From a virus, in the IMG/VR virus record IMGVR_UViG_3300022200_001615, positions 1-24,704 of that record: 24,704 bases of DNA; one strand, given 5' to 3'. This document shows positions 8,148 through 22,404 of this stretch, piece by piece. The first letter of the stretch is position 1, and the number at the start of each line of letters is the position of its first letter. Position numbers and translations under genes: made by a program. A model generated the notes under the pieces. That model ran no database searches, was not told the origin of the DNA, and saw nothing but the letters and a program-made list of their open reading frames with translations.

Positions 8148-8431
8148 TATTTAGACCTCCCTTCTGCAAAACCTTTAAAAGTATCTTTTTTAGTTTCTTT
8201 TTTAGGCTTATCCTCTAACATATCTTTTTCTTCTTGTATACGATTAAGTATTTCAAAAGCATCAAATATAGCAAGCTTTTTAGTTGCCGCTGCATTTTTT
8301 AATCTGTCAGCTGATATATCATCATCTGAATCAACAATAGGTTCTTTAGCTACCTTTATTAATTCTTCCACCGCTTTTTGCCCAGCGTGGATTATATTCA
8401 ACTTCGTCTCCTTTGTATTCATACTTAGCAA
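8147..8431 (-). CDS. Putative terminase small subunit
   Basis: A 94-residue helical, charged protein directly before the large terminase, with the TAA stop sharing its A with the terminase ATG. The core AVEELIKVAKEPIVDSDDD, then DRLKNAAATKKLAIFDAFEI, is predicted helical, and the tail KKETKKDTFKGFAEGRSK is basic. Position, size and a basic tail fit a small terminase that selects viral DNA and hands it to the large subunit, but I see no definite helix-turn-helix. The start is M1 (8431) or M4 (8422). Either way it overlaps the end of the upstream gene by 77-86 bases, because no later Met precedes the conserved-looking core. Confidence 0.5.
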   Translation of the reverse strand: MLSMNTKETKLNIIHAGQKAVEELIKVAKEPIVDSDDDISADRLKNAAATKKLAIFDAFEILNRIQEEKDMLEDKPKKETKKDTFKGFAEGRSK

Positions 8432-8945
8432 AGATGTTTTTAGATTTCATACAATATAAAAGTTCTTCATCAATTAAAAACCTCCATTCACGTTTAGGTG
8501 GATAACCAACTAAATCACCGGTGTTTACGCCTTTTTTAGCTAATTGTTTATTGTTGTATTTTATTACACCAGTTAAATATTTGTCTTTAATTGGTTTTAT
8601 AAAACAATAATCACCAAACGTTTTCCAATTACCATCATTTGTATATAAGTATATTTGATCAGGCGCAGCAAAATACAAGTCTTCATTAAAGTAAGAAGCT
8701 GAATTACGCTCATCACCTTGTTGATCGTACCATCTTCTAAATATATTATGATGCACTATAACTATATCACCTACTTTAATATCTGTATCGTAAGCTGTAG
8801 GCGTTGCTATTACTTTAGCAAATCTACTTATAAATTCAAACTCTTCTATTGAAGTGTTTATAATTAATTTTTTATCACCAATTTTAATTTCATTTTCATA
8901 TCTATTATTAAGAGGTGATATAATAAAATTTTGAATACTTCTCAT
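8346..8945 (-). CDS. Possible tandem GroES-like (Cpn10-like) beta-barrel protein
   Basis: This 199-residue protein is rich in beta-type sequence and has no Cys-rich or membrane region. Residues 5-101 align by eye to the order of motifs in GroES: a KLIINTS strand where GroES has GGIVLTGS, AKVIATP where it has GEVLAVG, IKVGDIVIV (56-64) where E. coli GroES has VKVGDIVIF, and a final strand EDLYFAAPDQIYLY. A second, shorter copy seems to follow at 111-176, with TGVIKY, NTGDLVGYPP and FLIDEELLYCMKSKNIFA. The last 20 residues are basic and Gly-rich. The role is unknown: a co-chaperonin for the phage GroEL or a barrel-fold virion component are both possible. Its start overlaps the upstream stop as TAATG. 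Confidence 0.5.
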   Translation of the reverse strand: MRSIQNFIISPLNNRYENEIKIGDKKLIINTSIEEFEFISRFAKVIATPTAYDTDIKVGDIVIVHHNIFRRWYDQQGDERNSASYFNEDLYFAAPDQIYLYTNDGNWKTFGDYCFIKPIKDKYLTGVIKYNNKQLAKKGVNTGDLVGYPPKREWRFLIDEELLYCMKSKNIFAKYEYKGDEVEYNPRWAKSGGRINKGS

Positions 8946-10700: not shown

Positions 10701-12251
10701 TTATGGTAATGCGGTAGATGTTAAACTACCTCCATTAGCCACTGTTATTCTATATCTTGTTCCATCAGGTGATTTTAATATTATACCTTTAGTATTTAAA
10801 GTAACTTCAACATCACCACTAGCAACTGTAAGTTTTGCGCTAGGACTAGTAGTTCCAATACCTACGTTGCCATTGTCTGCTAAAGTTGCTAGATCTACAC
10901 CGCTATTATTTTTAAAAAAAATACTACCACCAGATGTTGCTGAAGTAACGTTATTTACAATACAAGCATTACCTACAAAACTTGTAGTAGTACGTATAAG
11001 ACCTACAACATCTAAAGGCACACCAGGACTAGTAGTTCCTATTCCAACCTCACCGGTTTGCTTAACATTTACTAAAGAAGTACCATTATCTGAAATTCTA
11101 AAGTTTCTACCACTATAACTACCAAAGGTGTTTAAATCTATATATAAAGAACCGCCTGATTTTAAAGAAGAAATTGTGCTATTATTTATAAGAATATCAC
11201 CAGAATTAACTTGAAGTTTTTCTGTAGGATTATTAGTTCCAATACCTACGTTGCCACCATTGAAATATGTAGTTCCCCCAGATGCAATTTGTACGCCTTT
11301 TGTAGTGCCATCAGAACTATACATATCTAAAATTGATGCATTTCCTGTACCACCTATATAAAAATCAAATCTTTTTTCACCATTAGATGCTTTAAACCTT
11401 ACATTTCTGTCTATATCATTATTACCTGTACTACCACCTCTGACGTCTAACATAGCTGTCGGCGAAGTAGTGCCTATTCCAATAGCGCCTCCGTTGAAAT
11501 GTGAATTACCATAAGTTCTAATGTTTACCATTTCTACACCACCGCTTCTTCCTACTACGAAACCACCGCTGCTAGATGCACCTATTTCATAATAATTATC
11601 AGCGTCATAACTTGCTCTAACTCTACCAACAACGTCTAGCTTTTGTGCAGGACTAGAAGTTCCAATACCAACTTTACCCGCGCTAGAAGATGTTAATAAT
11701 ACATTAGCTCCGGTAGTACCTAATTGCGATATACCACTAGAAATAAAACTCCCTTCTACATGTAGTTTAGCAGATGGACTAGCAGTTCCAATACCTACAT
11801 TTTCAGATGAAGTTACTGAAAGTACATTAGATCCATTACTTCTAATTTGTAATTTTGATGAGTTGCTTGCTGCAATTCTCCATCTATCTCCAGGTGCGTC
11901 ATTATCTGCGTGTAATTCTAAAATTGCTTCCTGTGATGTATCTCCTAAAATTTTGATATAAGTTGAAGCACTAGAACCTACACCGCTAACTACAAGGTTT
12001 CTAGTAGGACTAGTAGTACCAATACCTAATCTTTTATTAGTATTGTCCCAATAAAAATCATTATCTCCAGTTACTGTAGAAGCAGCACTAAAAAAAGTTA
12101 CTTGACCTGCAGCTCCAGAACCAGTTGGATAATCTGCTAATAAATTTGTAGGTGATATTTGTACGTTGTCTGGGCCAGAATAACCTACTAAAAAATCTAC
12201 ATCTGCTTTCGCGGTTTCTATTGTAAATTGTGAAAACTTTATATTTGCCAT
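10701..12251 (-). CDS. Fibre-like protein with repeated GIGTxxP motifs
   Basis: This 516-residue protein shares its N-terminus with the next upstream fibre (MANIKFSQFT, then DFLVGYSGPDNVQISPTNLL, about residues 1-38), probably a virion-docking module. The body carries seven copies of a motif like VGIGTTSPSAKLxV, separated by beta-rich, Ser/Thr/Gly-rich spacers, typical of trimeric phage fibres and surface adhesins. The C-terminus (RYRITVANGGSLTSTALP) is short, with no S74 chaperone. It probably binds host surface structures or decorates the tail. It starts at a TAATG overlap with the upstream fibre gene. Tail attachment is inferred from composition and the shared N-terminus. Confidence 0.78.
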   Translation of the reverse strand: MANIKFSQFTIETAKADVDFLVGYSGPDNVQISPTNLLADYPTGSGAAGQVTFFSAASTVTGDNDFYWDNTNKRLGIGTTSPTRNLVVSGVGSSASTYIKILGDTSQEAILELHADNDAPGDRWRIAASNSSKLQIRSNGSNVLSVTSSENVGIGTASPSAKLHVEGSFISSGISQLGTTGANVLLTSSSAGKVGIGTSSPAQKLDVVGRVRASYDADNYYEIGASSSGGFVVGRSGGVEMVNIRTYGNSHFNGGAIGIGTTSPTAMLDVRGGSTGNNDIDRNVRFKASNGEKRFDFYIGGTGNASILDMYSSDGTTKGVQIASGGTTYFNGGNVGIGTNNPTEKLQVNSGDILINNSTISSLKSGGSLYIDLNTFGSYSGRNFRISDNGTSLVNVKQTGEVGIGTTSPGVPLDVVGLIRTTTSFVGNACIVNNVTSATSGGSIFFKNNSGVDLATLADNGNVGIGTTSPSAKLTVASGDVEVTLNTKGIILKSPDGTRYRITVANGGSLTSTALP

Positions 12252-14383
12252 TAGTGTACTATTTTTAATAAATCTCCTGTTCTATATAGTTGTCCCGTTG
12301 TCAATCCAGCTGCAATAGCCGCTGTATTGTCTGCATATTCTGAAACTCCTTGTACTTTTAAATTACCTGCAAAAGTTACATTATCATCATTTCTATTAAT
12401 AGTCATTACTGTTGCACCAGTAGTATTATTATTATGTCTTCTTATAAGTAAATTGTTACTTCCATCTCCATCAGTAGTAAATGAAAAACCATAATTCATA
12501 TCACTACCACTTGTATTTTCTACTAATTCTAAAATACTTTTTTGATTACCTATATTACTAGCAACTTTACCTACACTTAATCTATGAGTTGAGCCTGCTA
12601 CTGTACCGCTTACAACATTAACACCGCTACTTGTAGTTTCAAGTTTTTTATTACCAGCGTGGTATAAAGAAACAGAACTACCTGTTAAAGCTTGTAAATA
12701 AGTTTGACTTCCGTCTCCTCTTTTTAATAATAAATTATCTCCTTGTATATTTAAATTACCGGTGCCAGTATCTGTAATATAACTATTACTACCATCGTGA
12801 TATATTTGTAAATCACCAAGATCAGTTCCAAAACTTAAAGTACTATTATCAGGAAATTTAGTAAATAATCTACCACCTCCTTGACCTGCTTTACTGCCAT
12901 CTAAAAAGAAATATGTAGCTATTCCACCACTACCATCATCCGATTGGAAAATAATGTCTGAATCATCTGCAGAATTAAGTATTGTTAAATTTCCTGTAAT
13001 ATTTTGCAATACAGTATTTGTTCCAGAATGATATGCTTTAAAATCAGAGCCACTACCAAGCCTAAATTCTACATTATCTAGGTATCTTGTATTTTTGCTA
13101 AAGACTGTTGTTGTTGAACTACCATCTAAATAAAAATATGTAGTTAATCCACCTGATCCATCATCACATCTAAATAAAATATCATCACCATCTGAATTAT
13201 TTTGTATTTGTAAATCTCCTGTAAAGTTTTGTATAAAACCACCAGTACCAGTGTGTATTAATCTTAAATCATCACTATCTCCAAGGTTTAATTGTACATT
13301 ATCTGCAATACTAATATTTTTTAAAAAATCAACCCTTGTAGAACTTCCATCTAATTGAAAATATGTAGTTGTATTTCCTGAGCCATCATCTGATTCAAAA
13401 GTAATATCAGAATTATCAGAAAAGTTTCTTATTCTTAAATTACCAGTAAGGTTAAGTATCTGACTTTGAACGCCGTCGTGAAATAGTTGCATATCATTTC
13501 CGTTTCCAAATAGCGCTAGAACATTATCTCCTAATCCTACATTTTTAGAAAAAATATTTCTTTGGTTAGAACCATCTAAAAAGAAATATGTTTCTACTCC
13601 ACCACTACCATCATCGGATTGGAATATTATATCTTTATCATCAGCAGTATTTGATATTATAAAATCATTATTAAAATTTTCAATATAAGAGTTTGAACCA
13701 TTAGAATATATGTTTAAATCATTAGCGTCACCAAACTTAGCTATTATATTATCACTATGTCTTGTAGCTTTAGAAAATCTATTTTCAACAATGCTTCCAT
13801 CTAAATAGAAATATGTAGTTGTTCCACCAGAACCATTATCAGATTGAAATAATATATCTTTATTGTCAGCAGTATTAATTAATGCTAAATTACCAGTATC
13901 ACTCTCAATAACAGAATTTACAGCATTGTGATATATTTTTAAATCATCATTATTACCTAATAAAATTTTTACATTATCAGTTAGCCATTGATTTTTTGAA
14001 AATAATACTCTACTACTGCCACCATCTAACTTAAAATATTCAGTAACACCACCAGAACCATCATCTGATTGAAATATAATATCTTTATCATCAGCATAGT
14101 TAGTGATAAGCATATCTCCTGTGAAAGTAGACATAAGTAAGTTGCTACCATTAAATAATATTTCTGCATTACTGCTACTTCCAAACTGAGCTCTTACACC
14201 GCTGTTATATTTTATATTACCAGTCATTGTACCACCAGTAAGTGGTAAATAACCTGCTAGTGTTGCTGACAATAAATTAGCTGGAGATATTTGAATATTA
14301 TTAGCTCCCTTGTAACCTACTACAAAGTCTATATCTGATTCTGTGTTACCGACTGTAAATTGTGAGAATTTTATATTTGCCAT
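12251..14383 (-). CDS. Repeat-rich fibre-like protein (75-residue tandem repeats)
   Basis: A 710-residue protein. Residues 1-38 form the same N-terminal module as the downstream fibre (MANIKFSQFT, VVGYKGANNIQISPANLL). Residues 101-475 are five tandem repeats of exactly 75 residues, each opening like DIIFQSDDGSGGVTTYF and closing near TGNLxIxN. A sixth, longer and degenerate copy spans about 476-554, and a half-copy precedes the array at about 60-100. The C-terminus ends in a compact module (VQGVSEYADNTAAIAAGLTT, about 681-700). It is probably a long trimeric fibre whose length is set by repeat number. The repeats share motifs but differ throughout, so they are old rather than a recent slip. 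Confidence 0.82.
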   Translation of the reverse strand: MANIKFSQFTVGNTESDIDFVVGYKGANNIQISPANLLSATLAGYLPLTGGTMTGNIKYNSGVRAQFGSSSNAEILFNGSNLLMSTFTGDMLITNYADDKDIIFQSDDGSGGVTEYFKLDGGSSRVLFSKNQWLTDNVKILLGNNDDLKIYHNAVNSVIESDTGNLALINTADNKDILFQSDNGSGGTTTYFYLDGSIVENRFSKATRHSDNIIAKFGDANDLNIYSNGSNSYIENFNNDFIISNTADDKDIIFQSDDGSGGVETYFFLDGSNQRNIFSKNVGLGDNVLALFGNGNDMQLFHDGVQSQILNLTGNLRIRNFSDNSDITFESDDGSGNTTTYFQLDGSSTRVDFLKNISIADNVQLNLGDSDDLRLIHTGTGGFIQNFTGDLQIQNNSDGDDILFRCDDGSGGLTTYFYLDGSSTTTVFSKNTRYLDNVEFRLGSGSDFKAYHSGTNTVLQNITGNLTILNSADDSDIIFQSDDGSGGIATYFFLDGSKAGQGGGRLFTKFPDNSTLSFGTDLGDLQIYHDGSNSYITDTGTGNLNIQGDNLLLKRGDGSQTYLQALTGSSVSLYHAGNKKLETTSSGVNVVSGTVAGSTHRLSVGKVASNIGNQKSILELVENTSGSDMNYGFSFTTDGDGSNNLLIRRHNNNTTGATVMTINRNDDNVTFAGNLKVQGVSEYADNTAAIAAGLTTGQLYRTGDLLKIVH
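12959..14083 (-). repeat. Five tandem 225-bp coding repeats
   Basis: Five in-frame units of 225 bp (75 residues each), at residues 101-175, 176-250, 251-325, 326-400 and 401-475 of the fibre protein. Conserved positions include SDDGSGG, YFxLDGS, FSKN, DNV and NDLxIYH. A sixth unit with an insertion continues to about 12722. Lengths of the first five are identical despite high divergence. Confidence 0.9.
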
Positions 14384-16816: not shown

Positions 16817-17073
16817 AAAACAACGACCACGTCTCTTGCTTTTATAACGTGATATGTATCTTTATTTATTTCTATTTTGTGACCAGCTCTTCTGTCAAAG
16901 TATATTTCATCTCCTTCATTTATACCTTTTACATCTTCACCATGAGTTAATACTTTAGCTTTATTAAATCTAATATCTTCTCTTTGGCTATGTGTTAAAA
17001 GCAAACCACCTTTTGTTTTTTCTACACCTTGTTCCATAGGTGTAATAATCAAATTATCTCCTATCGCCTTCAT
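16813..17073 (-). CDS. groES: Co-chaperonin GroES
   Basis: An 86-residue Cpn10, somewhat shorter than the 97 residues of E. coli GroES. It shows the expected order: IGDNLIITP at the start, mobile-loop region EKTKGGLLLTHSQRED (residues about 18-33, with the hydrophobic GLLL that docks to GroEL), then VLTHGEDVKGINEGDEIYFD and a final strand near YHVIKARDVVVVL. It would cap the phage GroEL so that substrates fold in the closed cage. Its start overlaps the groEL end by 20 bases, so the two are translated from one message. The order groEL then groES is the reverse of the usual bacterial operon. Confidence 0.92.
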   Translation of the reverse strand: MKAIGDNLIITPMEQGVEKTKGGLLLTHSQREDIRFNKAKVLTHGEDVKGINEGDEIYFDRRAGHKIEINKDTYHVIKARDVVVVL

Positions 17074-18607
17074 GTACTCTTATATTATTAATTACACAAT
17101 CAGTTGATAAAATAGTAGTAGCTACAGAGGCCGCGTTTTTTAAAGCGCTTTTCGTAACTAACAATGGATCAATAATGCCATTGTCAATCATGTTTACCAT
17201 ATTTCCCGTAACCACATCTATGCCTTCACCTTCAATTAATTTTTTACTGTTAGACAAACCAGCGTTTAATAATATAATATTGAACGGTGATTTAACTGCA
17301 TCTAACAATATTTGTTCAGCTTTATTTGCAGCCTTAATTTTTGACGAAGCATTGTATAAAGCTATACCTCCACCTGGAACTATACCTTCTTTTATCGCGG
17401 CTCTTGTAGCACAAATTGCATCTTCAACCCTATCTTTCTTTTCTTTTAATTCAACATCTGAATTAGCGCCAACTTTTACATTAGCTATTTTAGCAGATAG
17501 TAATGCTAATCTTTTTTCTAATCTTGTTATACTTCCAGGTTTTGTTTCTTTAGCTATATCTTCTTTCACCTGCTTTATAACGTTTTGCACTTGATCTGAA
17601 ACACCTGCGACTTGTATAATAGTTTCATGTTCAGTTGTTGTAACTTTAACACACTCGCCTAAATGCTCTGGCTGTATTAAATCTAAATCATCGCCTAAAT
17701 GCTCGTTAATAACTGTAGCTCCAGTCATCATAGCAATATCATTTAATACTTGTTTTTTAGTTACACCAAAATTTGGAGCATCAACTATATTTATTTTTAT
17801 ATTACCTTTTATTTTATTCATTGCTAAAGCTGCTAATACTTTTGTGTCTGTGTCAGCAATAATAAACAAAGGTCTATTTGTTTTTATAACGTGTTCTAAT
17901 ACTGCTTGTATTTTTCTAATGTTTTCAATTTTAGATTCTACAATTAATACTAATGGTTTTGCTAACTCTGCTTTTTTACCTGCTTGATCAGTAACAAAGC
18001 TCATGTTTTTTAAACCTTTATCGTATTGTATACCATCTACTATTTCTATATACGTATCTGGAGTATTAGATTCTTCCATAGCAACTACACCTGTTTTTCC
18101 TACTGATAAAAAAGCTTCACCAATTTTATCACCTAATTCTTTATCGTTATTAGCAGATATTGTAGCTACTTGTTTAACCATATCATCTACAACAGGTATA
18201 CTTATTTTGTCTAAGTATTTTATTGTTTTATTAACAGCTGAATCAATACCTGTTTTTAAAAATCTTACATTATTTTCTTCATGCTTAGTTGCTAAATGTA
18301 AAATTGAATGAGCAAGTACTGTTGCTGTTGTGGTACCATCTCCAGCTTCTTTCACAGTTTTACGAGCTGCTTCTTTTATTAGAGCAGCGCCCATGTTTTC
18401 AACTGGATCTAAAAGCGTTATGCTTTCAGCTACTGTTATACCATCTTTTGTTATGGTTGGTTTACCTAAGTGATCTTCTAGAATAACACACTTACCGTTA
18501 GCCCCAAGAGTGGAGCTAACAGCGTTTGTGAGTTTATCTATTCCATTTAATATCTTATCTTGAGCTTCCGCTCCAAAGTTAAGATTCTTTACAAGTTTTT
18601 CTGACAT
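17054..18607 (-). CDS. groEL: Chaperonin GroEL (phage-encoded)
   Basis: A 517-residue group I chaperonin subunit that would form a ring for ATP-driven folding, probably of capsid or fibre proteins. Nucleotide-site residues are intact: TLGANGK (33-39), KDG with D55, GDGTTT (89-94), VEDAICATR with D396, GGG (412-414) and D480 in IDPLLV. The apical part is divergent (for example KNMSFVTD where bacterial GroEL has the SPYF type motif), which could shift substrate choice. The C-terminus ends VHEGDRR and lacks the Gly-Gly-Met tail of bacterial GroEL, so it is shorter than the 548-residue E. coli protein. The leader TAAAATTAAATTTAATT-ATG is A/T-rich. Chaperonins are known from virioplankton metagenomes. 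Confidence 0.97.
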
Positions 18608-18639: not shown

Positions 18640-18957
18640 TTAATCAAAGGTTTTAACTACCTTAGGTCCTTTTAAAAAATCTACTTTTTTAGCATAGTGA
18701 TCTACTGATCCATCAATAGCAGCCTCTGCTCCGTCTATAGTTTCTCTTCTTGTGACATCATGCCATTTTTCACAGCAATGATCTTCATTTGGATTACAAG
18801 GACAATCAATGTCTTTATATTCCGTTTGATAAAAACCGTTAGGTAATTGTGTTATCCTCCAGTTTTTCTTTTCTGAAAGATGTTTCCAAAGTTTGATTTG
18901 GTCTTCGGATACTTGTGGTTGACTATTCCACGTTCTAGTCGAATAATAAAACGTCAT
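18640..18957 (-). CDS. Unrecognised Cys-rich small protein (105 aa)
   Basis: A 105-residue soluble protein just before groEL (32-base gap). A compact motif CPCNPNEDHCCEKW (residues about 53-66) has four Cys and one His, which could bind a metal. The surroundings are WRITQLPNGFYQTEY before it and VTRRETIDGAEAAIDGSVDH after it. The leader carries three copies of AAAACCAA. I recall similar ORFs in related phages with no function assigned. Co-transcription with the chaperonin genes is likely, but a functional tie is not shown. Confidence 0.7.
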   Translation of the reverse strand: MTFYYSTRTWNSQPQVSEDQIKLWKHLSEKKNWRITQLPNGFYQTEYKDIDCPCNPNEDHCCEKWHDVTRRETIDGAEAAIDGSVDHYAKKVDFLKGPKVVKTFD

Positions 18958-19039: not shown

Positions 19040-20566
19040 CTATGCATTTTCTAATGCTGTAACTTTAGCAGATAATTCTTGTACGGCTTTTACTAATACA
19101 GGAATTAATCTACCATAGCTAGCTTCTAATTTATCAGGATTAGCATCATATACTAATCTTAAGAAATCATTATCTACTTCTTGAAGATCTTGCGCTATAA
19201 AACCTATGTCTTTAACTCCTGCGCTAGCTGGTTTTACAAGTTCTGTTACTCTTTCTTCTTCTTTTTCTCTACCGTCGTCTTTTATTATAACTTGTTTTTT
19301 TACTTCTACTTCTCTAGGATCCCAAACGAATTTTTTAGGTTTTAAAGACATTATTGTTTGTAGACCTTCATCTAATTCTACTATGTCTTTTTTATCTCTT
19401 CGGTCAGATAATGCAGATATAGAACTTTGAGCACATCTTAAAACACTTACACTAGCGTCACCTAAAACAATTTCATTACTAACAGCGGTTCCAGATATTT
19501 GAGCGCCATTACCTAAACAAGTATTGTTGTTACCACCAGAAGCAGCGTTATTAGCCGGTCCACTACGGTAACCTATAAATGTATTATTATCTCCACTAGT
19601 ATGCTCAAGACCCGCTGAAGTTCCTACCATTGTGTTATATTGTTGTAAAGTTCCATCAAGATCATTACCACTAGCATACCCAATACAAACATTACTACCA
19701 CCATACACATGTCCACCTGAAGCTCTATATCCAATGTGAACATTAAACTTAGAATCTAAATCCACAGTGTTTTCAGATCCAATTTCTCTTCCTAAATAAA
19801 CACCGTATTGTAATTGACCATTACCTTCTGCTCCTTTACCAAAAGCGTTAGAACCTATTATAACTGTAGAACTCTGAGCTCTATCTAATCCATCTGGGGC
19901 AGAACCATCATCCCACATAGAATAACCTATCCATACATTTTCTTGGCAATTGTTACCTTTAATAGCCTCACCAGTTGTTCCTGCTCCAATAATTACGTTT
20001 TCTCTATTAAATGTACCTGTGTCTGTTAAACCTTGTTGTACAAACTTACTTGCTATTACTACATTATCAGCAAATCTGTTAGCTACTGTCGTAAAATCAA
20101 ATGGTACATCAGCACCAGGACCAGCACCACAAAGTTCTAGTGCTAAAAAATCTCTACAATCATCTGGGTTTTTAGCTAACCAAGGATCCATATCACCTAT
20201 TGGATAGCCTGTCATCCAAACTGCACCTTTACTAAAAAACCCTCTATCTGTAGGCCATTGAATAGTTGATCTATAACCTTTAACAATTGGGTTTCCAGGA
20301 AAACCACCAAGAGGACCAGAATCAATACTCCATTCTCCTCCTATCTTATCTGAAGAAGTCCATCTGGTGTTCCATCCGTCCGCAGGTGTTCCTGATTTTT
20401 CTACTGATCCAGCGTCAAATGCTACTGTATCAATTATGTCTTGCATTGTATATTGTGTCGCAGCTGTTGTAGCCGTGTTGACATTGTCGTTCTGTGTTGT
20501 AACAACTCCTCCTGGTTGAGAAGGATCGTACCACGAAAGTTTATAATTTAAAGGGATATTTGCCAT
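19040..20566 (-). CDS. Tail fibre/spike with C-terminal S74 intramolecular chaperone
   Basis: A 508-residue protein. The N-terminal segment (to about residue 50) shares YTMQDIIDTV with the upstream 525-residue protein, a likely docking module. The middle has repeated head-like motifs (NNTFIGYRSG, NNTCLGNGAQ, VCIGYASGND) like trimeric adhesins. From residue 387 the sequence SDRRDKKDI begins an S74 domain (about 122 residues) with the conserved S387 and K392 dyad of self-cleaving endosialidase-type chaperones; GFIAQDLQEV and a C-terminal helix follow. This domain trimerises the fibre and is then released, with cleavage expected before S387. The role is host adsorption. It is the first of the last-block genes before the hairpin gap. 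Confidence 0.88.
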   Translation of the reverse strand: MANIPLNYKLSWYDPSQPGGVVTTQNDNVNTATTAATQYTMQDIIDTVAFDAGSVEKSGTPADGWNTRWTSSDKIGGEWSIDSGPLGGFPGNPIVKGYRSTIQWPTDRGFFSKGAVWMTGYPIGDMDPWLAKNPDDCRDFLALELCGAGPGADVPFDFTTVANRFADNVVIASKFVQQGLTDTGTFNRENVIIGAGTTGEAIKGNNCQENVWIGYSMWDDGSAPDGLDRAQSSTVIIGSNAFGKGAEGNGQLQYGVYLGREIGSENTVDLDSKFNVHIGYRASGGHVYGGSNVCIGYASGNDLDGTLQQYNTMVGTSAGLEHTSGDNNTFIGYRSGPANNAASGGNNNTCLGNGAQISGTAVSNEIVLGDASVSVLRCAQSSISALSDRRDKKDIVELDEGLQTIMSLKPKKFVWDPREVEVKKQVIIKDDGREKEEERVTELVKPASAGVKDIGFIAQDLQEVDNDFLRLVYDANPDKLEASYGRLIPVLVKAVQELSAKVTALENA

Positions 20567-20579
20567 TTGTTTATTTTTT

Positions 20580-20834
20580 TTATAATGTTATTTTGTTCCA
20601 ACCTTTTTCGTCTATAAAGTTTATAAAACCTCTATAAGAACCATTTTGGTCCTCTGTAAATCTACAACCTTGTACTTGAATTTCGTCTTTATTTATTTCA
20701 CGAGCGTCTAAAAGTGCTTCGTATATACTAACTAGATTAGATGTATCTGATACGTCTATCCACGCTTTTTGATCTTTATCAAATATTTGCCAAGTGTTTT
20801 TTCTTAATGAGTATTCTTTTTCCATGTTATCCAT
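20580..20834 (-). CDS. Unrecognised small protein (84 aa)
   Basis: An 84-residue acidic protein (MDNMEKEYSLRKNTWQIFDK). It looks globular, with NTWQIFDKDQKAWIDVSDTS near the start, then EALLDAREINKDEIQVQG and GSYRGFINFIDEKGWNKITL. There is one Cys and no membrane span. It overlaps the end of the tailspike-like gene by 8 bases and precedes the S74 fibre by 13 bases. Sitting between two tail proteins, it may be a small fibre-assembly or accessory protein; nothing in the sequence proves this. M4 is an alternative start. Confidence 0.65.
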   Translation of the reverse strand: MDNMEKEYSLRKNTWQIFDKDQKAWIDVSDTSNLVSIYEALLDAREINKDEIQVQGCRFTEDQNGSYRGFINFIDEKGWNKITL

Positions 20835-22404
20835 AATTTACTACAGTATATGTAGGGTCTATTGAGTTTCTAATTTTTCCATTACCAGCAACAGCGGGGA
20901 AATCACCATTGGTTTGTCCTATTGCAAAACAATTTAATACTTTCGCATGGCATTCTTTTAATGAATAATAAGATGGTCCGCCGCCAAAAGGATACGCTCC
21001 AGTTGAAGTACAATTAATAAAAGTAGCTTCACACGGAGTAGACATTCCGTATTGATCAGGAGCTCCAAAAGCAAAAGCACCCGAAGGTTGTAATGCTGTA
21101 CAATTTACATACAACGCGCCTGAATGATCACCTTTCGCAACTCCACTAAAACCGTAACTCGATGTTGCTGTACAATTAACATATTGACCATCATTTGTAA
21201 CTGCTTTGTACGCAAAAGCTCTTTGACCTCCTGTACAATTAATAAAATTAGCTCCAATATCATTTGCAAGAGCACCAAAAACCTGGTAGTCTCCACCACA
21301 ATCAATTAAATAACCATTAAATATATCCGCATAATATCCAAAAGTATAACTAAGTTGATGAAATCTACTATCATCAGTATTTCCTATATAACTTCCAGGA
21401 TTGTTACATCTAATATATAAACCAGATGAATCAGCTTGTTTACAGCCAAAACTTGAACGCGCTTGGCACTCTACAAATGTTCCATCTGCTGATACACCTG
21501 TGGGCACTGTGTCTTCATCTCCAGATCCAAAAGATTCAAAACTAGACACACATCTTATAAAAGTTCCATCTACTGATCCTGCTCCATAATTTTTCATTTG
21601 AAAACTTCCCGCTTGAGTAGATCTTATTTCTCTATATGTAATATAAGGCAAGTTGCTTTCCATCCAAATACCATCTGTTGTAAAACCTCCTACAACTATA
21701 GGATATATTGAGTTGTTCGCTCCTGATTTTACATGTACTCCATTTCCAGTAATTTTAACAATTTCTTCTTGTTTAGCTATACCTACTACATTTACCAAAC
21801 CATCAAGTTCTAAGTCAGAAGCTATGTTGTATGTACCAGGTCCAATAATTAAAGTTGTTACATTTGTTAGTACTTCTCTTACTGGAAATCCTTGAGTATT
21901 AATATTAGGAAACGTTAAGCTGGTTTGATAAACTCCATTTAAACTAACGCGAAATTTAAAGTTTTGGTTACTCAACCTTTGAGTTACTATAATAGTATAT
22001 GTTTTAACTCCATCACCGAAATCAGCTGTCCATTCATAAGGAACATTTAAAGGTGTATCTCCAAGGCCTGGATTAGGAGTAAACAAAAATTGATAAATAC
22101 CGTTTCCTTGATTCATCCAACTTTCAAACGGGTATGTTGTGTAAGCTTGTATATTTTCAGCTGTTGTTATTTTTGCTTTAGCTTCATCATAAGCTGCTAG
22201 CAAAGCTACTCCATTTTCATCGCTTGTACCATTAGAACTTACTATAACAGTTGAGTTACTTGAAACTTCAGCAACAGTGTCTTTAATATCCTGCATGGTA
22301 TATATTTGATCCGTATCATTCATGTTTGATTGATTAGAAGTTTGGTATAATCTATGTTGTGGATCATAAAACATAGTACCTCTTGAGCTTGGTATAATTG
22401 CCAT
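20827..22404 (-). CDS. Tailspike-like beta-helix protein with a cysteine ladder
   Basis: A 525-residue protein. Residues about 28-45 (NDTDQIYTMQDIKDTVAEVS) repeat the docking-type motif of the S74 fibre. Residues about 130-280 are beta-rich. From 285 to 492 nine motifs like TFINC or LYVNC recur (Cys 285, 313, 333, 369, 390, 411, 435, 465, 492), spaced 20-36 residues apart, as in successive turns of a right-handed parallel beta helix where side chains stack. Such helices form many phage tailspikes that bind or cut polysaccharide. I cannot see a clear catalytic pair, so enzyme activity is open. Confidence 0.75.
   Translation of the reverse strand: MAIIPSSRGTMFYDPQHRLYQTSNQSNMNDTDQIYTMQDIKDTVAEVSSNSTVIVSSNGTSDENGVALLAAYDEAKAKITTAENIQAYTTYPFESWMNQGNGIYQFLFTPNPGLGDTPLNVPYEWTADFGDGVKTYTIIVTQRLSNQNFKFRVSLNGVYQTSLTFPNINTQGFPVREVLTNVTTLIIGPGTYNIASDLELDGLVNVVGIAKQEEIVKITGNGVHVKSGANNSIYPIVVGGFTTDGIWMESNLPYITYREIRSTQAGSFQMKNYGAGSVDGTFIRCVSSFESFGSGDEDTVPTGVSADGTFVECQARSSFGCKQADSSGLYIRCNNPGSYIGNTDDSRFHQLSYTFGYYADIFNGYLIDCGGDYQVFGALANDIGANFINCTGGQRAFAYKAVTNDGQYVNCTATSSYGFSGVAKGDHSGALYVNCTALQPSGAFAFGAPDQYGMSTPCEATFINCTSTGAYPFGGGPSYYSLKECHAKVLNCFAIGQTNGDFPAVAGNGKIRNSIDPTYTVVNYG

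Follow-up and report, generated by a model that had tools for sequence, protein, structure and literature searches.

The question raised by this locus is whether the cysteines that recur in a predicted phage spike occupy the same place in successive turns of a β-helix and, if they do, what a column of thiols would be doing there. The DNA analysed (the window), 24,704 bases in length, is a virus record. It encodes a terminase with 63 % identity to the one of the uncultured podovirus MW202828 and 43 % identity to those of Flavobacterium Elemovirus phages, and the virus is probably a podovirus related to flavobacterial phages. GroEL and GroES genes are annotated in both MW202828 and the Elemovirus phages and the window has both too; from this common pair and the terminase relatives, we infer that the host would be flavobacterial. 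The GroEL and GroES-like pair was also found on contig L337.

The neighbouring genes referred to below, all on the minus strand, are:

8346-8945 (-), GroES-like gene, in the same window as the tail genes
10701-12251 and 12251-14383 (-), two adjoining tail-fibre-like ORFs (first 39 residues 64 % identical)
17054-18607 (-), phage GroEL chaperonin (PHROG, Pfam and NCBIfam matches)
19040-20566 (-), tail protein with a C-terminal Peptidase_S74 (endosialidase-type) chaperone and an N-terminal segment in common with the spike (PHROG, Pfam, protein alignment)
20580-20834 (-), ORF of 84 aa that overlaps the spike gene by 8 bases, candidate partner family member (position and partner profile)

The spike ORF and its cysteine motif

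The ORF of interest and its parts, as used throughout, are:

20827-22404 (-), putative cysteine-column spike gene, 525 aa (ORF; tailspike structural matches)
22270-22404 (-), N-terminal 45 aa, probable virion-attachment segment with the motif IYTMQDIKDTV (alignment with the S74 tail protein)
21730-22254 (-), N-terminal cap region, aa 51-225, ENGVALLAAYDEAKA ... TTLIIGPGTYNI (family alignment; model)
20929-21573 (-), predicted β-helix coils, aa 278-492, with nine column Cys (ORF sequence; model)
21550, 21466, 21406, 21298, 21235, 21172, 21100, 21010 and 20929 (-), lowest bases of the codons for column Cys285, 313, 333, 369, 390, 411, 435, 465 and 492, respectively
20830-20952 (-), C-terminal cap, aa 485-525, HAKVLNCFAIGQTNGDFPAVAGNGKIRNSID (family alignment)

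The spike gene lies among virion and tail genes; it adjoins the gene for the S74 tail protein, and a terminase and a portal are encoded within the same window. The N-terminus of the spike resembles the start of the S74 tail protein (43 % identity over 49 alignment columns, E 7e-4 for this pair), and because of this resemblance an attachment role is proposed for the first 45 aa, which suggests that the two proteins may use the same virion attachment site. Motifs of the IYTMQDIKDTV type are also present in the relatives L203/L251, L204/L106, L207 and L208 described below. The two tail-fibre-like ORFs at 10701-12251 and 12251-14383 have another N-terminal segment in common.

There are 12 Cys in the spike ORF, at residues 285, 313, 321, 333, 369, 390, 411, 435, 458, 465, 485 and 492. 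An earlier, sequence-only reading had listed nine hydrophobic-x-Asn/Arg/Glu/Asp-Cys motifs, at the nine residues given above as column Cys, and all nine are present; the interval assigned to them (20929-21552) runs exactly from the Cys492 codon (20929-20931) to the Cys285 codon (21550-21552). When the ORF was searched for [VILFYMA]-x-[NRED]-C, ten matches were found, namely the same nine plus Cys485, which had been left out and which sits off the column in the model; Cys321 and Cys458 had not been mentioned. Shuffling the whole protein 20,000 times gave 0.85 matches on average and never more than 6, and 20,000 shuffles of residues 275-500 gave 0.73 on average and at most 5, versus the ten observed. 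The period of the motifs is loose, since the gaps between the nine column Cys (28, 20, 36, 21, 21, 24, 30 and 27 residues) range from 20 to 36, and the 36-residue stretch from 333 to 369 is free of column Cys. The Cys content of the spike is 2.29 %, versus 0-1.31 % in 19 of the 20 other ORFs tallied, the exception being a 105-aa ORF at 18640-18957 with 3.81 %.

A viral protein family with Cys-containing coils

Direct searches with the target returned no match by tblastn in 50,697 phage records, none for six exact target peptide patterns in viral contigs, none among PDB sequences (E<=10) and none in Pfam (E<=1), and 31 contigs with a related terminase, searched as whole records, contained no close homologue. 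PHROG matches with E of 0.39 and above were rejected as chance, as were NCBIfam matches to AAC(6') acetyltransferases, the best of which (E 4e-4) scored 20.5 bits against a cut-off of 325.

Relatives were recovered by a scan of viral contigs for pairs of [FY]xN-C-T units separated by 17-27 residues, which returned at least 120 stretches, and by a protein search among the ORFs of these stretches. A profile of six relatives then gave the best 78 of 113 relatives (counted as loci), some on contigs already in the set. As only the coil-pattern scan followed by the family profile reached them, the family is remote from the target. Membership was defined as at least four coil motifs containing Cys, a rule that favours Cys. 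At least 83 non-identical ORFs, including the target and fragments, belong to the family on this definition, though these are not 83 independent genes as contig ends truncate some of them and a few contigs are present twice. Many further matches of the pattern scan had Cys at regular intervals (11, 23, 24 and 26 residues, for example) but were repeats of other types and were left out; some of these resemble BspA-type leucine-rich repeats (LRRs). Five viral repeat proteins outside the family (L139, L140, L143, L191 and L196) have strictly periodic Cys, with a spacing of 11, or of 8 and 18.

The N-terminus of family members is variable and is followed by a cap (YVFVxANGTDxENAAELQAAY ... IAAPGNYxF), by 4 to 22 coil motifs resembling ASGTFxNCTGGxxSFGG that are about 20-21 residues apart, and by a C-terminal cap, GxLYYCRLTSGTFxTVSGxGRTVLCIDG, to which aa 485-525 of the target are the counterpart. 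The target aligns across all of these parts at 24-30 % identity (26 of the other 82 ORFs were in the alignment). Its N-terminal cap is interrupted by an insertion at about aa 84-177, where pLDDT is <50, and this insertion of about 90 residues is partly common to L227, L229, L230, L231, L236 and L238.

None of the Pfam, PHROG or NCBIfam models in the scans made names the family. No PHROG match was found at 0.01 for eight members, and Pentapeptide_4 was matched weakly by two of 23 members scanned against Pfam (best E 4e-4). Other leads towards pentapeptide repeats came from pentapeptide chains among the PDB profile matches (E 0.03-0.6) and in the Foldseek list. Pentapeptide repeats are defined by a five-residue repeat of the A(D/N)LxX type; the coils here have a period of 20-21 residues with no five-residue repeat and the target has no Pfam match, and assignment as a pentapeptide repeat protein (e.g. 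PF13599) was rejected. The PDB profile matches all had E of at least 0.027 and were regarded as short motif matches. An LRR with a cysteine ladder, as in InlJ, was also rejected, as the repeat (LxxLxLxxNxL / LxxLxLxxCxxL) is absent from the coil profile and Pfam again gave no match to the target.

With 40 % identity and E 5e-23, an uncharacterised protein from an uncultured Caudovirales phage was the best BFVD match of relative L204. Searches of the 50,697 phage records with L106, with the L204 cap and with one of the partner proteins, low-complexity filter on, gave no match, and neither of two named phage genomes whose terminases are related gave a match to the cap profile. In genome contigs, a single-protein scan found no relative and a second scan found seven contigs with relatives. 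These seven (L282-L288) are from bacterial metagenome-assembled genomes (MAGs) labelled Flavobacterium, Sumerlaeaceae, Kiritimatiellae, Hydrogenedentota and Verrucomicrobia.

A related terminase is encoded on eight of the 47 family contigs searched, the contigs being fragments. These include the contigs of L204, L207, L208 and L251, and the spikes on these four also have the N-terminal motif of the target. The L204 contig carries, on one strand, GroEL, spike, tail gene, GroES-like gene and terminase in that order; the window has a similar but not identical order, with the spike ahead of GroEL.

With GxF as the anchor, 81 % of 731 coils had Cys at position +5 and 52 % had Asn at +4; relative to [SA]FG anchors, Cys was found at -6 in 657 of 724. 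Because the family definition required Cys, a search with the cap only was also run, using an alignment whose members themselves came from the Cys-selected set, and this recovered 44 loci (40 distinct proteins). In the cap-selected proteins, Cys is present at -6 of [SAV]F[GSA] in 314 of 342 anchors and at 256 of 313 GxF anchors. Eleven of the loci were previously unlisted; they represent ten distinct sequences, in each of which the cap is followed by seven to nine Cys. A hand count of all Cys after the cap gave odd totals for 23 of the 40 proteins and even totals for the other 17 (one of the 40 is cut by a contig end), and pairing of the Cys therefore does not look obligatory.

Near-identical N-termini carry different numbers of coils, which indicates that rod length changes by whole coils. 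L218 and L220 are 98.7 % identical over the first 150 residues with seven versus five coil motifs, L204 and L205 are 98 % identical with eight versus 12, and L209 and L212 are 94.7 % identical with six versus 22. Tandem arrays of 63-nt units were found in L239 (19.4 copies) and L212 (22.4 copies), arrays of a kind that short-read assembly may distort. At L212:5022-5498, on the downstream side of the 22-coil spike gene, there is a second array, made up of 72-nt units.

Among listed family ORFs with room for it, 59 of 76 are followed immediately by a small ORF. In 46 of these 59 (40 distinct, 78-124 aa), the product ends with a sequence like GI[LI]N[CYF]RvngEHKQIRF. This partner gene follows the spike in L204, L205, L207-L210, L212, L214, L217, L218, L222-L227, L229-L231, L233-L237, L239, L249, L252, L258-L261, L263-L265, L270 and L271. 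Three partner proteins (one partial) had no significant Pfam or PHROG match. The small protein could be a dedicated chaperone or cap for the spike. In the window, a partner profile ranks the ORF at 20580-20834 first among ORFs of at least 70 aa (11.1 bits; 1 in 1,000 shuffles scored higher); it does not have the strict C-terminal signature, and its membership of the partner family is suggestive only.

Predicted fold and proposed role of the cysteine column

The AlphaFold2 model of the target has a mean pLDDT of 62.7, with aa 1-35 and 84-177 below 50. It was built from 27 sequences in which these Cys were already aligned, so model and motif are not independent. In this model, all nine named Cys have the same local DSSP pattern, EEE-[C]E, i.e. 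strand, one-residue turn, Cys and strand. The pattern occurs at 13 positions, and the nine past residue 222 are exactly the nine named Cys; Cys321, Cys458 and Cys485 do not have it. The model of relative L204 (378 aa) has a pLDDT of 88.3 and coil block means of 93-99, and ten of its 11 Cys have the identical pattern, the last being at the same place but called strand (one DSSP letter off). The proposal that Cys would recur at the same place in successive turns is thus borne out at the level of prediction, with nine at one equivalent local position in the target model and the same column in L204. The L204 model, too, was built from aligned Cys, so neither model tests the column independently. 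We still consider it informative that the predicted local structure is equal despite spacings of 20 to 36 residues.

The tailspike-like β-helix proposed from the sequence also agrees with structural comparison, in which the target model resembles the right-handed parallel β-helices of solved tailspikes. VIA-align gave Z 21.9 to CBA120 TSP3 (5w6f; rmsd 4.0, 323 residues, 10 % identity), Z 21.5 to the Sf6 tailspike (2vbk; rmsd 3.7, 319 residues) and Z 21.2 to the AlgE6 epimerase (5lw3; rmsd 4.0, 308 residues), three scores tied within 1, and the L204 model gave Z 19.4 to Sf6. These Z-scores, obtained with predicted models, are a second look at weak candidates; a Foldseek search of the PDB with L204 gave no match at E<=0.001 (best 0.014), and FdlA ranked 21 among its weak matches (E 0.17). 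In the target model, the column Cys come after a one-residue turn and before a short strand, and by the DSSP pattern they occupy one equivalent position in successive coils, as in a cysteine ladder of the FdlA type.

We consider it probable that the protein is a tailspike or receptor-binding protein built as a β-helix with a column of buried, reduced packing Cys. It would consist of an N-terminal attachment segment, a pectate-lyase-like cap, a right-handed parallel β-helix with nine Cys coils and a C-terminal cap. In each Cys coil, a turn of one residue, which in the family is often Asn, would be followed directly by one Cys, and the side chains would thereby line up in one column. The buried stack of reduced thiols would pack the core and hold the coils in register, and such register-keeping would permit the gain or loss of turns. 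Since phage spikes fold in the cytoplasm, which is reducing, buried thiols would be expected to stay reduced. The column is read as structural packing because of this, because the stacks in two solved phage tailspikes are unbonded and because Cys totals are often odd, and a stabilising role is the likeliest reading.

Stacked Cys might instead oxidise pairwise after lysis and lock the spike, as adjacent rungs should bring thiols close together and disulfides are reported to stabilise another phage structure, the Milano tail (PMC10811340). However, the target column is made up of nine Cys, an odd number, the hand count was odd in 23 of 40 relatives, and the stacked Cys of two solved phage tailspikes are explicitly unbonded in the passages cited in the next section; disulfides in the column are unsupported and we regard such a zipper as very unlikely. 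That the column chelates metal ions along its axis, for example Zn, Cu or Hg, seems highly improbable. Although soft metals could be bound by thiols in a row, the data contain no sign of binding, the 21-position coil profile has no conserved His, with Asp at 27 % at +9 and 16 % at +4 only, and no metal is mentioned for the solved Cys stacks in the passages cited, so the metal binding that had been suggested from the sequence found no support here. It is also unlikely that the Cys were simply copied along with duplicated coils without selection for the thiol. Some relatives are arrays of similar 63-nt units (L239 and L212), so that copies need not be independent, but the coils of the target are too diverged for a detectable array, yet nine keep Cys. 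Over the 731 anchored coils Cys is retained more often than the preceding Asn (81 % versus 52 %), and the 314 of 342 anchors with Cys in the 40 cap-selected proteins point the same way.

A bolder version of the packing column, which we put forward as a doubtful possibility, is that the column is not generic packing and is selected for thiol chemistry in a receptor-binding family whose spike gains or loses whole Cys coils (range 4 to 22), with each added turn extending one core sulfur column in a self-templating rod and with the small co-inherited partner being needed for folding or capping the spike. The natural series of 4 to 22 coil motifs could be used to measure the contribution of Cys per rung to β-helix stability, and one Cys per rung is a possible design rule for solenoid proteins. 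The family also points to a gene pair made up of a spike and a small partner.

Comparison with known cysteine stacks

The regular Cys had been called unusual for a protein exposed outside the cell. This does not hold, as the passages cited here for two solved phage tailspikes, TSP3 and APK16_gp47, already describe stacked unbonded Cys. In TSP3 (ORF212, 5w6f) of Escherichia phage CBA120, the first-ranked structural match, Cys341, Cys369 and Cys389 are stacked on consecutive rungs with one rotamer and are described as too distant for disulfides (PMC6517402). The target is like TSP3 in having a right-handed β-helix tailspike fold with a Cys stack, but has nine Cys where TSP3 has three, is only 10 % identical to it, and did not find it in sequence searches. 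The tailspike depolymerase APK16_gp47 of an Acinetobacter phage is likewise a phage β-helix with stacked Cys, and the passage cited gives four that are unbonded, C348, C381, C413 and C434 (PMC10219094).

Outside phages, the C-terminal β-helix of TBCC/RP2 likewise has a core Cys stack, but it is eukaryotic and short with four Cys. In the passages cited (PMC4539340), the S-S distances in LmTBCC-C are 3.8-4.7 A, and the four-Cys core stack is among the conserved features called likely important for folding and stability. InlJ is reported to have a cysteine ladder in a repeat protein, but of the LRR fold and not a β-helix. The N-terminal domain of FdlA from Flavobacterium sp. SA-0082 (7xz7) is like the target in that Cys comes after a short turn. 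The passages cited describe a five-Cys 'cysteine ladder' at the T2-PB3 juncture in coils 4-8, together with a short Asn ladder, which is thought to stabilise the groove, and iodoacetamide lowers FdlA activity, an effect that the authors ascribe to the Cys ladder (PMC9410043). Because of the iodoacetamide effect, such a ladder need not be fully shielded. Unlike the target, FdlA is a bacterial lyase with a shorter column.

In the parts of the literature on cysteine ladders and stacked Cys that were covered, a search that was not exhaustive, neither this family nor an equally long column in a phage protein was found, and the literature on Cys in the P22 tailspike yielded nothing useful. Short stacks of unbonded Cys in phage spikes are already known, and what is new here is the length of the column and its near-invariance, together with the variation in coil number and the conserved small gene downstream of many relatives. 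Stacked core Cys, previously seen case by case in a few phage spikes and lyases, are in this viral β-helix family a defining and near-invariant trait.
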